NCBI RefSeq assembly: GCF_018446385.1
Contig: NC_056003.1
Span: 21,387,198 to 21,451,197, forward strand
Reading direction: 5' to 3'
Length of the DNA stretch: 64,000 bases
Origin: Zingiber officinale
Taxonomy: Eukaryota; Streptophyta; Magnoliopsida; Zingiberales; Zingiberaceae
Under the pieces are notes generated by a model. The model saw nothing but the letters and a program-made list of their open reading frames with translations, was not told the DNA's origin and did not search any database. The translations under genes were made by a program, and so were the position numbers. Within the stretch, counting starts at the first letter, position 1, and each line of letters begins with the position of its first letter. Shown here one piece after another: positions 8,435 to 42,985 of the stretch.

Positions 8435-9973
8435 AGTTCAATTTAATAAATAAGACATATATCTTTATAGTTGTGCAATAACAAAATGCAATAAACAAAA
8501 CATGCAACCATATGGACATTAATAGAGATTTCTAGTGCAACATTACATCAAGTATTTGGACTAACTTATAACTTGTTATTGGTACTTTCATCTGCCACAT
8601 AACTCGTTGTTATTGGACAACGAGGTCGACAAGGTAAGTCAGATACGATCTCTTCCATCTGATAAGTTGTTTAAATATATTAAATTATTAACTAAAAACT
8701 ATTGCAAAATTGAAAAAGAAAATAAAGAATTAAAAATAATTTTAGCCAAATCTTATATGTTAGAAGATTTTGAAAAATTAAAAATTGAAAATGATAAATT
8801 GAGGATACAAGTAGAAAACTTAAAACCATACATGCTTAATTGTTCAAGCTTAAAATTTTAAAAGACTAAGATGGTATCTTAGATTTCACAGGGGTCAAAT
8901 TAAAAAAATTCCAAAAAGTTATATACCCTGTAAATTTCTAATAACCCAGTAGTAAGGAACCTATATTGGGTTCCTAAAGAATATTTGAATTGAAATTATG
9001 TTAGGCTTTTAGAAAATAAATTAAATGTTTAAATTCTTTAAGAGATTTTATCTAGAAGTGGTTGATGATCCAATAACTAAGAAGGCATAATGCCTCACCA
9101 CAGCCTGAAAGTCAATTACTGAATTGAATATTTAATTGGCAAATTGATAAACATGTAATAGTTAATTAAAGTAATGCTTTCAATCTGTGTTAATTGTTTG
9201 AAAACTTCATAACTTAAAAAAATTATTTTTTAAAAAACTTAAAATATTGACATTGCAATTTTTTTAATATCAAATTATTTTTAAAGTTTATCAAAATTAT
9301 TTTCAAAAACTTGATAAGTTTTTACTTTTTATTTGAAAACCTAAATTTTTAGAAAAGTTACCCTTGGATTTTTTTTACCCTAATTTTTTATGTGATCAAA
9401 GGGGGAGAAAGGAAGATTAAGTGTAGGGAGAGGTAGTAGTTAAAATTCAAATTTTAATTTACAATTGAAAATCTTTTTGCATTTTATTACAATTTTATTA
9501 TCTTGACTTGGTATTACAATTTTTTACTTGGTATTGCAATCTTTAATTTATGGTTAGTTTACCCTAACTTAACTTGGGTTGCTCACATCAAAAAAGGGGA
9601 AGATTGTTGGAACCCTAAGGTTGTTTTTGATGTGATCAACCAAGTTTAGGTTAGGTCCTGTTATGTTTTGATCCTTGTGTCTAAGTGTGCAAGAGTTTAG
9701 GAGCACAGGAAGTCGAGTGGAAGATGCAGCTAGCGAGAATGACGACACAGAAGAGAGCTGACGGGCTCAGTGCGTCTGAGGGACGAGGTGCTGGGGAAGA
9801 GTACACTAGTGGACAAGAAGGACGCGCGCGGAGGCCCGAGGGACGAGAAGTCGAGGAGGAAGGTTGCTCGAGGAGAAAGTCAAAATTGGATTCGGGTGAA
9901 CCTTATTTCGGTTAGCCGAAATCACCCAAGCGGAAGAGCGAGAGGAGGAGGAAAGAAGCTGAAGTCTTCTGCT

Positions 9974-10215
9974 GGAAGGTGCCTTCACTGTGCATGGAAG
10001 GTGCCTTCAAGCCTTCATGGAAGGCGCCTTCCTTACGCATGGAAGGCGCCTTCAACTCATCATGGAAGGCACCTTCCATGACTATGGAAGTCACCTTCCA
10101 TGGCTATGGAAGGCGCCTTCGACCAGGCAATTCTGGCCGTTACGAAAAATAATAAAGTTTTATCCTTGACCTTGCTGGAGGCCTCCCAACCTTATGGAAG
10201 GCGCCTTCAGCCTGC
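9974..10215. repeat. Array of GGAAGGCGCCTTCC palindromes
   Basis: About eight copies of a self-complementary core, GGAAGGYGCCTTC, spaced 20-35 bp from about 9974 to 10130, with one more at about 10195-10210. They lie immediately upstream of the LTR TATA box at 10235. Confidence 0.88.
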
Positions 10216-36300: not shown

Positions 36301-36388
36301 ATAAATAATATTTACCATAAATGAATCAATAGCTGCTTAATCTATAGATTTAGTATACAAATTTACTTTATTGCAATAGTAAATATTA

Positions 36389-37157
36389 TGATCCTGTCCG
36401 AATCGCCGAACCAAGGGACGTTGGGCACGTGGCACTCTCCTAGTCGATGGCACAGGCCTCCGAAGCTCCGGCGATCCTGCACAGAAGTCGGGCCGGGAAG
36501 GGGTTCCCGGCGGCGACCCTCCGACGCTCAAGTCAGGTAAGTAGTGGAAAAAGGAGCTCCCAATCTTGTAGAATGCGTACCTCCGGCGAAGTCTACGGTT
36601 CTTTATATAGGGCGATGAAAAAGCTCCTACACGCCTATCGAGGTGCGTGCGTATCCGCAGCCCATGCCTCGGTGTGTGCCTGTCAGAAAACTTACCTGAC
36701 GCCATACTGCAACAGTCCCATCGTACCTTCGATGGCACAACAAGATACCCCGTTGTCAGACTAGGAGTATGGCTTAGTCATGTGACTTGACGGCTATCAG
36801 GAGATGTTCCTGTTCTCCTTTACCGCCGGCCGGGACGTACGTCCGGCCGGCTGGATGGAGAACATCGTCCGGACGGCACGCCCCTCACATCTCGCCTGTC
36901 GCTTGTGCTGAGATGCCGGGGAGACTTCCAGGCGAGTGACTTCCTCTCGGCTCTGAGACATTGTTTCATTGAGCGTCGGAACCCCAACCTGGTCAGGGCG
37001 CCTTTTACTACCGAATGTCCATTGGTCGGCCGATCGGCCTTATCCATTTCTTCCAAGTCCGGTCGGCTCACCCTTCTCCGGCGGGCTACTTGGCCATTTG
37101 ACCTCCACGTGGCGTTGACCCCTCGTTAGGGGGTCCCAGGCTCTTACCACCGGATCA
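36389..37157 (-). repeat. 3' LTR of the Tat-like element
   Basis: 769 bp. Nearly identical to the partner at 42039-42834, but lacks about 27 bp present there (TTTCATCCCCTGCGCCGGCC region, between two copies of CCGGACGGC; junction near 36877), a deletion between short direct repeats. Confidence 0.93.
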
Positions 37158-37540
37158 CTTGCCTTCCCCTCGAGTCTAGTCGAAGGAGGCGAAGTCCGAC
37201 TGACTGGACTGCCGATCTGACAGAACAACGATAATTGCATTGGGCCGCTCGGCCAGGTCTAATGATGCTCGCCCGTTCGGCGATATCTGATCCGTGCCTT
37301 GTGGTCTCTTGGACTCCATGTCCTATGCTCTCCCCTACTATTCATCATGTGCACTGCGCACGGTAAGGGGAGCTCATTAAATGCGGCCAATATCCAGCTG
37401 ACACGTGGCGATCATGCGTTTGTCAGAGTATGGCGGTGGCGTCACTTCCGATGGGACAACCGCCGTTTGAAATGGACGGCTGGATGATGACCTCGTTATC
37501 GACGACCTGGATCGGACGGTGGATGTTGCTCCCGGGCGGC

Positions 37541-37549
37541 GATATAAAG
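37541..37549 (+). promoter_or_regulatory. TATA box for the antisense ORF
   Basis: GATATAAAG within GC-rich sequence, about 260 bp upstream of the antisense ORF start at 37805 and outside the LTR. It suggests the plus-strand ORF has an internal promoter independent of the LTRs. Functional status is inferred. Confidence 0.55.
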
Positions 37550-37804
37550 CCCGCGACTCCGTTTCCGCCGCCTTGTTGCTTCATCTTCCTCCGGCGCTCC
37601 TCTGCTCGTTTTTTTTTCTCCGGCGACCTCGCTCCTCAATTCTTCGGCAACCCCCCGGCCCCCGTCGATCATCTTTCTTGCTCGTAAGACCCTCCTTCTC
37701 GTTCCCAGCGTTTTCTTCTTTCTGTTAATCGTTTCCTTCAGTCGGTTTTCCTCCATTCCTTGCTTGAACCTTCCCTTTTGGTCCCGTATCCTTGTCTGTC
37801 GACC

Positions 37805-39791
37805 ATGACTAGCACCTCGCAGCCGACCGGCGGTGCTCCGGGTCTTTGGTATTCGAACATGGAAAGCCGGTTCGACGAGGAGGACGCCTTGCGCCTCACT
37901 CGAGCCTATGACCTGCCGATCGACCACCAAATAGTGTTAGCCACACCCGTCCGACACTGTTGTTTTCTTTCGAGACCAATTTCTGGCCGGACTGCGTTTT
38001 CCACCCCACAAGTTTTTCTTAGAAGTTTGCAATTATTTCCGCGTTCCGCTCGGCCAGGTTGTTCCCAACTCTATTAGGTTGCTTAGCGGAGTGATAGTTT
38101 TATTCAAACTGAACGGCATCCCCTTAGAACCAAAAACTTTCCACTACTTTTTTTATCCCAAGCAAGCCGAGTGGGGCACCTTTGTTTTCCAGTCTAGGAT
38201 AGGCTTCGTCCTTTTTGATAATATGCCGAGCTCCAACAAACATTGGAAGGAGCATTTTTTCTATATACGTTTTCCCGAACGGCCAACTTTTCGCACCAAG
38301 TGGCAGACGGCGATGCCATCGCAACCAGAGCTCGGCAAATTTAGAGGTGACGCGGCCTACCTTCATGTAGCCGAACGGCTAGTTGGCCAGCGCTATCATA
38401 TTGACAAGCTACTCCTCCCGGGAGTAATGCACATATTCGGCTTGTCCTCTACCACAGCCGATCTGCCCTGCAGCATGAGTAAGTTTCTTTATCTTCCCAT
38501 TTGTTTTGTTCTAACTGATTTATTTTTTGCTCCTGCAGCTGAAGTCATGTGGCGCGCCAAAGCTACCGAGAAGCTCAAATTGAAGGCCGCTCAGATTGAG
38601 GCGGTGACGAACAAGGAGGCCGCCGAACGGGGCCTTGCTCCGGCTGATCCGGCCGGCGAAGAAGGTGAGGGGACACCAACTGTCCCCGAAGCCTCAGACG
38701 CCCCAGCCCCTCATGATGAGGCCGTCGGCGATATAGAACCTCCCACTGAAGCTGAGGTGGAGGGCCGTTCGGCCGATGATGTGCCGCTGCGCACTCGAAA
38801 ACACCGACGACCAGAGTCCGCCCCTGCCTCTACACTTGATGAGCCCCAACCCGAGGGCGCTGCCAGGCTGCATCGCGGGACGGCCGACCGACCCTCATGG
38901 TTCTCAGGGCCACTAAGCGGGCCCCGGACGTTGACAGCTCAGCTCGCGGGTAGCGTTCTGAGTCTTCTGACGAAATTGAAAAGGAGGAATGTTACTAGTC
39001 GGTCCTTAAACTTGTCTGCATTAGCAAATATGACCTGCCAAAGAGTTTTGCTTTTTGACGAATTTTCCTAAATTCATAGATTTCAATCAAAATTTTCATT
39101 AAAGAACCCAAATGCTACACTTTCTTAATATTTCAATTATTTTTTGTCCATGTTCATTATCACAAGTTAGCGATCGATACATGCCATGATTAATAACAAA
39201 CAAAATACGATGGGGGGTGCCGGGCCGTCGACGGCCGCTCTGGAGAAGGCCAAAAAACTACTGGATGCCGAACGGAAAAGGGCTTCCGATCTAGCGAGCA
39301 AGGTCGTTCGGCTTGAAACGATGATCAAGCAACGAGATAAGGAGATCAAAACGGCGACCACTCGGAAGCAACAGGCCATCAATGATATGGACCACATGAA
39401 GGTGGAGATCAGGGGGCTGGAACAACGCATCAAAGATTTGGACGCCCTGCTAGCCACCGAGAAGGAGAGCCGCTCGGCCGATCTCCAAAGATTTGATGGA
39501 GATTTGAAGGATCTTCAGGCCGCCAGCGACGCTGCCCACGCCGCGCTCAAAGAATATCAAGAGGGGGAGTCGGCTCGCTCCGAAGAAGGGAGGAAGGCGT
39601 TCCTCCGCTCGGAAGACTTCGGAGAGAAGTTTACTAACAAGATATCCCTCACTTTCGAGGAGGCGATCAAGGCGGCGGTGGGCTATCTGAAGACCAAAGG
39701 CCACCTGCCTGCCGAGCTGACCATCCCCCCCGAGGACCTCGCGAGCGTGATGGACTCCATCCCCGACGCTCTTTTTGATTTTGATGTGTGA
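37805..39791 (+). pseudogene. Antisense ORF of Tat-like element (putative gypsy-type transposon domain)
   Basis: Plus-strand reading from ATG 37805 (SNMESRFDEEDALRLTRAYD), then after a frameshift near 37945-37950 a long frame with LLSGVIVLFKLNGIPLEP, FYPKQAEWGTFVFQSR and HIFGLSSTTADLPC, typical of the plant 'putative gypsy type transposon' domain found antisense in Tat/Retand and related elements. A possible 60-bp intron (GT 38479, AG 38538; flanks ATGA/GTAAGT and TGCAG/CTGAAG) keeps frame. An acidic Pro/Ala-rich linker follows, then a second frameshift near 38890, an AT-rich interruption at about 38985-39190, and a C-terminal coiled coil at 39186-39791 (LDAERKRASDLASKVVRLET ... IPDALFDFDV). 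The role of these antisense proteins is not known. Broken by at least two frameshifts. Confidence 0.78.
38985..39190 (+). other. AT-rich interruption within the antisense ORF
   Basis: About 200 bp of markedly AT-rich sequence separates two GC-rich coding parts of the antisense ORF. It may be a small insertion or a diverged intron; splice sites are not convincing. Confidence 0.4.
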
Positions 39792-40194
39792 GGAGCGTTT
39801 TTATGAACTTTTTTGTATTCCCTTCGTTCGGCCCAACTTATCTCTGTAATGACTTATTTGATTTACCTAATGAGTAATAGATGACCTTCTGCTCCTTTCA
39901 CTTCTGTTTTAGCAAGGCATTTTTCCGTCGTCACGCCAAAGTGTTCTTTATATCCTTTCCGCTCGGCACCACGCTTCTGTCCGGCTCAATTCGATCGTCT
40001 TAATGGCATCTATCATGCGACCGCGCAGCTGCTAGGCTTTCGAACGTAACCGCTCGGCATTTACATGCTAATATCCCTAACTTCCACTGACCCACTTTTT
40101 CTTTGTGCCTTACCCCCAAAGGGTTTTTCCGTACATTTTTGATAAGCGAGCCGCTCAGCCGTATAACCAGGCTATCGTTGATTGCATCATGTGA

Positions 40195-41165
40195 CTGGCT
40201 ATCCGCTCGGACGTTTATAGACGCTGACTCGTCTCTCGATATTTATCGTCGAAGCTCGACGGTCTTCCGCTCGGACGTTTATAGACGCCGGCTCGTCTCT
40301 CGATATTTAACGTCGGAGCTCGACGGTCTTCCTCTCGGGCATTTATAGACGCCGGCTCGTCTCTCGTTATTTAACGTCGAAGCTCGACGGTCTTCCGGCG
40401 GGCCGTCTCTCGATATTTAACGTCGGGCTCGACGGCCTTCCGCCGGAGCGTTTATAGACGCCGGCTCGCTCTCGATATTTAACGCCGGAGCTCGGCGGTC
40501 TTCCGCCCGGCGTTTATAGACGCCGCTCGTCTCGATATTTAACGCCGAGCTCGGCGGTCTTCCGCTCGGACGCTTTATAGACGCCTCTCTCGATATTTAA
40601 CGTCGGAGCTCGGCGGTCTTCCGCTCGGACGTTTATAGACGCCTGCGCTCTCGATATTTAACGCCGGAGCTCGACGGTCTTCCGCCGGACGTTTATAGAC
40701 GCCGGCTCGTCTCTCGATATTTAACGCCGGAGCTCGGTCTTCCGCTTCGGACGTTTATAGACGCCGGCTCGTCTCTCGATATTTAACGCCGAGCTCGACG
40801 GTCTTCCCCTCGGACGTTTATAGACGCCGGCTCGTCTCTCGATATTTAACGTCGGAGCTCGACGGTCTTCCGCTCGGACGTTTATAGACGCAGGCTTGTC
40901 TCTCGATATTTAACGTCGGAGCTCGTCTCTCGATATTTAACGTCGGAGCTCGACGGTCTTCCGCTCGGACGTTTATAGACGCCGGCTCGTCTCTCGATAT
41001 TTAACGTCGGAGCTCGACGGTCTTCCGCTCGGACGTTTATAGACGCCGGCTCGTCTCTCGATATTTAACGTTGGAGCTCGACGGTCTTCCACTCGGACGT
41101 TTATAGATGCCGGCTCGTCTCTCAATATTTAACGTCGGAGCTCGACGGTCTTCCGCTCGGACGGA
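40195..41165. repeat. Tandem array of about 64-bp units replacing pol
   Basis: About 15 units of the pattern CCGCTCGGACGTTTATAGAC, then GCCGGCTCGTCTCTCGATAT, then TTAACGTCGGAGCTCGACGG, then TCTT. Units near 40430-40620 are shorter and degenerate, those from 40680 on are closer to identical. Each unit contains TTTATAGACG and GATATTTAACG. The gag frame runs into the array and ends there (41129). Confidence 0.92.
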
Positions 41166-41993
41166 GGAGCCCGCTCGGTTGGAATTTCTTTTTTCCTGGC
41201 CGCTTGTGCCTCTTCCACGTTGATGTATTCGTTCGCCCGGTGTAGCATGTGATCATAGTCTCGGGGCGGCTTTCGGATGAGCGATCGGAAGAAATCCCCA
41301 TCCACCAGGCCTTGTGTGAAGACGTTCATCATGGTTTCTGAGGTGGCCGTTGGAATGCCCATCGCCACTTGGTTGAACCGCTGGATGTAAGCTCGAAGCG
41401 ATTCACGGGCTTCTTGCTTGATGGCGAACAGGCTCACGCTCGTTTTCTGGTAACGTCGACTGCTTGCAAAATGGTGGAGGAAGGCCGTTCGGAAATCTTT
41501 GAAGCTTGTGATGGATCCGTCCGGCAATCTCCGAAACCACCGTTGAGCCGAGCCCGAGAGAGTGGTAAGAAAAACTCGGCACTTTACTCCATCTGTGTAT
41601 TGATGGAGAGTAGCTGTGTTATCGAACTTACCCAGATGATCATCCGGGTCGGTTGTTCCATTGTACTCGCCGATCGTCGGAGGCGCGTAGTGCTTTGGCA
41701 TAGGGTCTCGTAGGATAGCCTCTGAAAATTGGCGATTGATCCGCTCGGGCGACACGTCCGCTCGGGGGGTTTTCCCCTTTCTGTTATCTCGTCTAGGCAT
41801 TTCATCCGAAGAAGATCCCCTATCCCGGTGGTGCTTCCGCTCGGCCGCCAGACGCTGAAGTTGCTTGCTGCTCCGGCCGCTCGGCTGCTGCCTTCTGTTT
41901 TTGCTCCACAAGCTTGGCGGCCCTTATCTCGATCAGAGCGTCGAGTTCCTCAGTCGAAAGTGTCACCGCGTGTTGTCGTCCAGCCTCGTCCAT
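41129..41993 (-). pseudogene. Tat-like gag, frameshifted near the N-terminus
   Basis: Likely start ATG at 41993 (MDEAGRQHAVTLSTEELDAL), with a frame change near 41870-41890 into the main frame, which reads to 41129. The main part has PPTIGEYNGTTDPDDHLGKF, LTTLSGSAQRWFRRLP, SFKDFRTAFLHHFASSRR, LFAIKQEARESLRAYIQRFN and ANEYINVEEAQAARKK, the Retrotrans_gag capsid domain of Tat-lineage elements. The C-terminus, including any zinc knuckle, is cut off by the tandem array. Capsid-like protein could form only if the N-terminal shift is bypassed. Confidence 0.88.
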
Positions 41994-42038
41994 TGTTTCC
42001 GATCGGATGCAGGAGCGTTCCCACAGACGGCGCCAAAT

Positions 42039-42834
42039 TGATCCTGTCCGAATCGCCGAACCAAGGGACGCTGGGCACGTGGCGCTCTCCTAGTCGATGG
42101 CACAGGCCTCCGAAGCTCCGGCGATCCTGCACAGAAGTCGGGCCGGGAAGGAGTTCCCGGCGGCGACCCTCCGACGCTCAAGTCAGGTAAGTAGTGGAAA
42201 AAGGAGCTCCCAAGCTTGTAGAATGCGTACCTCCGGCGAAGTCTACGGTTCTTTATATAGGGCGATGAAAAAGCTCCTACACGTCTATCGAGGCACGTGC
42301 GTATCCGCAGCCCATGCCTCGGTGTGTGCCTGTTAGAAAACTTACCTGACGCCATACTGCAACAGTCCCATCGCGCCTTCGATGGCACAACAAGACACCC
42401 CGTTGTCAGACTAGGAGTATGACTTAGTCATGTGACTTGACGGCTATCAGGAGATGTTCCTGTTCTCCTTTACCGCCGGCCGGGACGTACGTCCGGCCGG
42501 CTGGATGGAGAACATCGTCCGGACGGCTTTCATCCCCTGCGCCGGCCGGACGGCACGCCCCTCACATCTCGCCTGTCGCTTGTGCTGAGATGCCGGGGAG
42601 ACTTCCAGGCGAGTGACTTCCTCTCGGCTCTGAGACATTGTTTCATTGAGCGTCGGAACCCCAACCCGGTCAGGGCGCCTTTTACTACCGAATGTCCATT
42701 GGTCGGCCGATCGGCCTTATCCATTTCTTCCAAGTCCGGTCGGCTCACCCTTCTCCGGCGGGCTACTTGGCCATTTGACCTCCACGTGGCGTTGACCCCT
42801 CGTTAGGGGGTCCCGGGCTCTTACCACCGGATCA
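42039..42834 (-). repeat. 5' LTR of the Tat-like element
   Basis: 796 bp, TGATCC...GGATCA. Contains TTTATATAGGGCG on the plus strand (42252 region; its reverse complement CGCCCTATATAAAG is a good minus-strand TATA box), consistent with minus-strand transcription. The primer-binding site is immediately to the left. Confidence 0.93.
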
Positions 42835-42985
42835 TATTACTACATTGAATTAACATAGAAATTATAATAGTAATGGTACTCTAAACATTCTTATATGAAA
42901 TTATAAAAGTTAATTGGTAAACATAGTGAATATGGTTATCCCAAGTTAGGCATCGAGAGTATACTTAATTTGCTTATCTTTTTAC

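Follow-up and report, generated by a model that had tools for sequence, protein, structure and literature searches.

In the 64,000-nucleotide stretch of ginger (Zingiber officinale) DNA analysed here, the window hereafter, the minus strand carries at 36389-42834 a long terminal repeat (LTR) retrotransposon with target site duplications, a primer binding site (PBS), a purine tract (PPT) and a gag gene, which is without pol. In the sense direction, a 5′ LTR of 796 bp (42834-42039) is followed by the PBS ATTTGGCGCCGTCTGTGGGAAC (42017-42038), gag (41129-41995), an array of about 15 tandem units of about 64 bp (40201-41165), a gene on the plus strand, antisense to gag, the PPT (37158-37181), and a 3′ LTR of 769 bp (37157-36389). 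Both LTRs start with TGATCC and end with GGATCA, and TATTA can be read directly on either side of the element (36384-36388 on the left, 42835-42839 on the right). LTRs, PBS, PPT and target duplication are therefore intact while pol is absent, as in non-autonomous elements mobilised in trans; a tblastn search of the element with the pol of a relative gave no match. The initial annotation had described just these intact ends, with gag on one strand, a long open reading frame (ORF) on the other and pol gone, and all of this is borne out. A comparison of the two LTRs shows 14 differences over 769 sites and a single 27-bp gap in the 3′ LTR, a Kimura two-parameter distance (K2P) of 0.0185, which at an LTR substitution rate of 1.3e-8 would place the insertion about 0.7 million years ago. 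The allelic site on C17 is empty, and there the flanks of the insertion overlap by the five bases of a single TATTA, so that only one of the two homologues carries this copy; their flanks are 94-96% identical, to be set against the LTR distance.

The gag frame matches the Pfam profile PF03732 (E 2.6e-19) and is cut off past its capsid domain, with an end reading ..ERKTVELRR. On the plus strand, the antisense gene would be transcribed from a predicted promoter with the TATA core ATATAAAG (37542-37549), which is shared unchanged by the window and all 20 relatives that were fetched from the genome, and lies in every one of them 264-266 nt upstream of the ATG. Its first exon (37805-38478) encodes a Transposase_28 domain (PF04195, E 5.5e-10), and is followed by a predicted intron of 60 nt (GTAAGT..CTGCAG, 38479-38538), by the portion of a second exon that matches relatives in alignment (38539-38855), and by a last exon (39212-39791, stop at 39789-39791) with weak coiled-coil-type Pfam matches only. 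Both the TATA box at 37541, outside the LTRs, and the splicing at 38479/38538 that had been proposed earlier thus find their counterparts in the sequence. Between the last two exons, a stretch unlike the aligned relatives (38856-39211) replaces the end of exon 2 and intron 2, and within it lies an AT-rich segment of about 215 bp (38986-39200). In the relatives, a second intron of 65 nt and a last exon of coiled-coil character are seen, and the copy L024 (the L numbers designate individual copies) has a complete predicted gene of three exons, in which the TRP28, linker and last exons are separated by GT-AG introns of 60 and 65 nt with compatible phases. Introns of this gene could persist through transposition, because an antisense intron would stay in the sense RNA that gets reverse transcribed. 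Protein searches returned 2 and 8 matches; the antisense TRP28 protein has matches in the ginger database proteins P0001, P0004, P0006, P0007 and P0009, annotated as uncharacterized or formin-1-like, which appear to be transposon genes carried as host gene models.

Both frames of the window copy are shifted in this assembly, as the initial annotation had it: compared with other copies, the antisense gene has a gap of 23 bp near 37948, and gag one of 59 bp near 41827-41831. We take these two gaps and that of 27 bp in the LTR as real, which is unproved, because they are single and larger, unlike the dense small gaps of two relatives, L011 and L017; an origin from nanopore errors is accordingly disfavoured. 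In those two copies, dense clusters of 1-6 bp gaps are confined to gag and neighbouring parts while the rest is nearly gap-free, a pattern that suggests a local lack of polishing in the nanopore assembly, not decay.

In its layout the element agrees with the Retand lineage of plant Ty3/gypsy elements, of which an antisense gene and a tandem array are regular features: the PF04195 ORF lies between the array and the 3′ LTR, the array has units of about 64 bp, and the pol frame of L024 contains the domains RVT_1, RNase H and rve, in the order reverse transcriptase (RT), RNase H, integrase. PF04195 is found antisense to gag in the window, L024, L031 and L036. In full-length relatives, which have the same LTRs and a length of 10.5-11.3 kb, RT, RNase H and integrase stand between gag and the array, and the array stands between pol and the antisense gene, whereas in the window gag runs straight into the array at a joint (41133-41176, minus strand; shared match CGTCCGAGCGGAA) that reads in sense ..GCTCCTCCGTCCGAGCGGAA for gag and then GACCGTCGAGCTCCGACGTTAA for the array; full-length copies run on as ..GCGGAAACAACACGC.

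This joint is far from private to the window. Its 44-letter pattern occurs at 17 genome sites within three mismatches, and the matching full-length pattern at 35, with no site for the reversed-pattern control in either case, which rules out that we are dealing with a single deleted copy. Thirteen joint copies were examined (the window, L026, L018, L011 and L029-L037), among them L011, found by alignment since its gaps hide the joint from the pattern; five of the 17 pattern sites lie outside this set. No pol was found inside the elements in the fetched stretches of these 13 copies, with the qualification that L033, L034 and L035 were seen in 7-kb stretches where no whole element is visible and pol could lie farther out; L018 lies within another copy's pol, and the weak pol-like matches of L011 fall outside its LTRs. 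At least five of the joint copies have target duplications of their own: TATTA in the window, ATGGT in L026, ATGAT in L011, TTACA in L036 and ACACA in L031. As to L018, the segments 1347-2886 and 9809-10000 (sense orientation) mark the family copy into whose pol it was inserted.

The 20 fetched relatives were taken among 34 further near-full-query-length matches to a query made of the 3′ LTR and the antisense promoter, which favours copies retaining the antisense side. Gag runs into pol in six of them (L009, L013, L020, L023, L024 and L028), and pol is also present in three more, in part in L015 and L016 and within a decayed gag-pol in L017. Three share the pol-less joint of the window (L026, L018 and L011) and three are pol-less with other endpoints (L010, L014 and L021), while the remaining five are otherwise truncated or interrupted: L022 has kept the tail of pol, L012 has a cut LTR joined to the array, and L019, L025 and L027 are interrupted or unresolved. 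The truncated gag is fully open in 3/13 joint copies (L026, L035 and L036), and L036 has antisense exons that likewise align free of stop codons. Neither the proposed lineage nor the condition set to refute it, namely that all relatives carry pol, agrees cleanly with this, since there are pol-less joint copies and full-length copies alike. Partners with matching LTRs are L009 and L020, with pol and with LTR pairs of 10.7 and 11.1 kb, and the PBS also matches in L028, the full-length partner in which it was compared. The spans of LTR pairs fall into two groups, 6.2-7.7 kb and 10.5-11.6 kb, which take in 20/20 pairs within 13 kb: for the window LTR, five pairs of 10.5-11.3 kb and three of 6.6-7.7 kb; for that of L036, seven of 10.5-11.6 kb and five of 6.2-7.5 kb. 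Short LTR pairs of the L036 type occur on C15, C16, C9, C20 and C21, and the four short copies of this type other than L036 are absent from the list of joint sites, being probably the result of other deletions.

Both genes bear the mark of protein-level constraint. For exon 1 of the antisense gene, the ratio of nonsynonymous to synonymous substitution rates (dN/dS) is 0.086 between L024 and L036 (off-frame controls 1.25 and 3.43) and again 0.086 between L031 and L030 (3.66 and 1.84), and these controls rule out that the antisense ORF is a chance open frame. For gag, the ratio is 0.093 among eight joint copies of other subfamilies (off-frame 1.87 and 2.57). Within the family, values are higher: 0.364 for gag against weaker controls of 1.386 and 0.539, and 0.54, 0.41 and 0.38 for the antisense exons, these last being values without an off-frame control. 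With dN/dS at about 0.09 across subfamilies, gag and the antisense gene have evolved under selection on their proteins. All of this constraint may date from full-length ancestors, and the dN/dS data of the two genes give no sign of selection after the loss of pol.

We consider the window element to be a non-autonomous deletion derivative of a Retand-type Ty3/gypsy element, produced by a template switch between array and gag that has recurred in at least two LTR subfamilies, and would give this reading a probability of roughly two in three. In such a scenario, the full-length genomic RNA would be copied by a reverse transcriptase that works through the tandem array and then switches, probably by template switching, to a matching stretch of 10-13 bp at the end of the capsid region of gag, so that the remainder of gag and the whole of pol would be skipped; the shortened cDNA, already inside the particle, would be integrated by the enzymes of the parent, and the same switch would have happened independently in at least two subfamilies. 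Template switching is the usual explanation of such exchanges among LTR elements (PMC11302176). Given the position of the array, with pol on one side and the antisense gene on the other, the switch would always spare the LTRs, PBS, PPT, gag capsid and antisense gene. The initial annotation had suggested that gag and the antisense product are what a transposing derivative keeps; the retention of both stands, whereas nothing shows a self-propagating lineage. Their survival is explained more simply by geometry, the best gag match of the array lying just past the capsid domain, so that a switch from one to the other takes out pol alone. Consistent with this, the joint site is the longest exact match between gag-pol and array in three of the six full-length relatives (L020, L023 and L024, 13 bp), and is tied for the longest in two (L013, 13 bp, and L009, 12 bp).

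That the joint arose at least twice is suggested by L036, a joint copy of another LTR subfamily, whose gag is 10.9% from that of the window and 97% identical to gags at C5:145860188, C2:23723024 and C7:39512854, all three within LTR pairs of full-length size (10,535, 10,719 and 10,712 bp, respectively). Among 40 genome matches to the L036 gag, the only one on the joint list is L036 itself; for L035, two of 40 are (L035 and L034), and the best others, at 97%, are off it. The TGCC just before the joint is common to L036 and to L038, a copy of the L036 subfamily with an 11.3-kb LTR pair whose gag continues into the protease side. Within a subfamily, a joint copy is no nearer to other joint copies than to full-length ones; the gag of the window, for instance, differs at 5 of 661 sites from that of full-length L009 and at 9-10 sites from those of joint copies L018 and L026. 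From all this we infer independent origins in at least two LTR subfamilies.

The clearest competitor, a true non-autonomous lineage in which a single ancestral deletion was followed by transposition of the gag and antisense unit, with exchange of segments with full-length partners as between RLG_Quinta and RLG_Cereba, seems to us unlikely. It would account for the identical joint at 17 sites, for a truncated gag that stays open in L026, L035 and L036, and, through exchange, for joint copies on several backbones (LTRs about 71-80% and antisense proteins about 40-75% identical to the window family) and for groupings of gag and antisense gene that conflict, as in L031, with a gag 5.2% from the window and an exon 1 protein 53% identical to L024. 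However, only 1-4 scattered sites have derived bases that set the joint copies apart from the other fetched copies, gag clustering recovers no clade of joint copies, the gags of L036 and L035 find their best matches in copies of the same subfamily without the joint, the bases immediately preceding the joint vary with the subfamily and not with the joint, and the truncated gag is open in no more than three of the 13 joint copies. The earlier alternative between a non-autonomous lineage and a single deleted copy would be answered by an apparent recurrence of the same joint, with no sign of a single line of descent behind it, which warns that an identical structure in many copies is no proof of one lineage. 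L030 and L031, with close antisense genes and gags of different groups (17.9% apart), are mosaic elements.

Plant LTR elements also lose DNA by unequal or illegitimate recombination, and a genomic deletion of pol between short matches after a full-length insertion could have used the same 10-13 bp. We regard this as very improbable, since it needs an independent event with the same endpoint at each of 17 sites, whereas reverse transcription crosses the array every time, and since such matches are short for this type of recombination. An artefact in which nanopore reads collapsed over the repeat deserves hardly any credence: the ginger assembly was built from Oxford Nanopore reads (PMC8342452) and L011 and L017 have their gap clusters, but the joint recurs at 17 sites with subfamily-specific bases, and the LTR spans form two separate groups.

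Several observations nevertheless weigh against a recurrent template switch. A DNA-level deletion subsequent to insertion would leave an identical joint; in L028 the match at the joint site, 10 bp, is below its longest (11); and codon shuffles reach the longest match in 11/200 cases for L024, 7/200 for L020, 7/200 for L013 and 8/200 for L023, rising to 22/200 for L009 and 62/200 for L028. The gag/array match is thus only mildly unusual, a plausible guide and no proof, and five of the six gag-pol stretches compared with the arrays begin inside gag, at the end of the fetched stretch. Within the window subfamily, gag distances are star-like (5/661 between the window and full-length L009, 10/661 to L026 and 9/644 to L018), which would be compatible with one deletion followed by amplification there. 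Finally, pol in the 97% relatives of the L036 gag is deduced from LTR spacing and not from pol sequence, and L038, the one full-length-sized copy of the L036 subfamily with a gag read to its end, differs from L036 by 6.0% overall.

Antisense ORFs had been said to be known in Tat/Retand elements, and a survey of recently active Retand elements indeed reports antisense TRP28 ORFs in 97% of clusters and tandem arrays in about half, both being widespread and neither with a known function (PMC11963269). The likeness, which extends to the Silene Retand, includes the PF04195 ORF between pol and the 3′ LTR, the arrays, a long internal region and clusters lacking some domains. Ten of the 63 clusters, compared by RT consensus, are defective, and those of its Table 1 are without GAG, protease, or RNase H plus integrase (PMC11963269), whereas the ginger element has lost everything from past the gag capsid to the array. 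An antisense gene in the 3′ internal region is likewise described for maize Grande and rice RIRE2, that of Grande being transcribed from its own promoter into a nuclear product (PMC7264820); the ginger element differs in a three-exon structure, predicted from sequence, and in a copy without pol. RLG_Quinta with RLG_Cereba, and RLG_Sabrina/RLG_WHAM, resemble it in a retained gag, missing RT and integrase, a full-length partner that shares the PBS, and gag exchange by template switching; RLG_Quinta is presented as one old lineage, unlike the ginger joint, which appears to recur, and the passages on RLG_Quinta and Sabrina mention no antisense TRP28 gene (PMC11302176). In titles and abstract openings of the literature, we recognised neither a Retand element that lacks pol but has kept gag along with the antisense gene nor a recurrent gag/array deletion. 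What is known here is thus the Retand-type element; the complete loss of pol and the apparently recurring joint are new. LTR elements without coding regions that are mobilised in trans are classed as LARD or TRIM types, and the ginger element is likewise an LTR element, but some of its copies still carry gag and the antisense gene as frames.

A more daring idea, which we hold to be quite unlikely, is that the Retand array acts as a built-in switch point, from which reverse transcription repeatedly casts off two-gene elements with a capsid-only Gag of new, fixed tail (..ERKTVELRR) and an antisense TRP28; their particles, devoid of enzymes, might interfere with the full-length parent and hold it in check, or serve as carriers that go on providing the antisense protein, which would explain the retention of arrays in about half of recently active Retand elements.

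The strong constraint on antisense exon 1 across subfamilies, in two comparisons with off-frame values of 1.2-3.7, adds to the case that its product has a function. Under the template-switch reading, the array itself would acquire a concrete consequence, as a repeat with a landing match in gag through which reverse transcription may give rise to pol-less elements with one recurring joint, and this would offer a testable route from full-length to non-autonomous elements.

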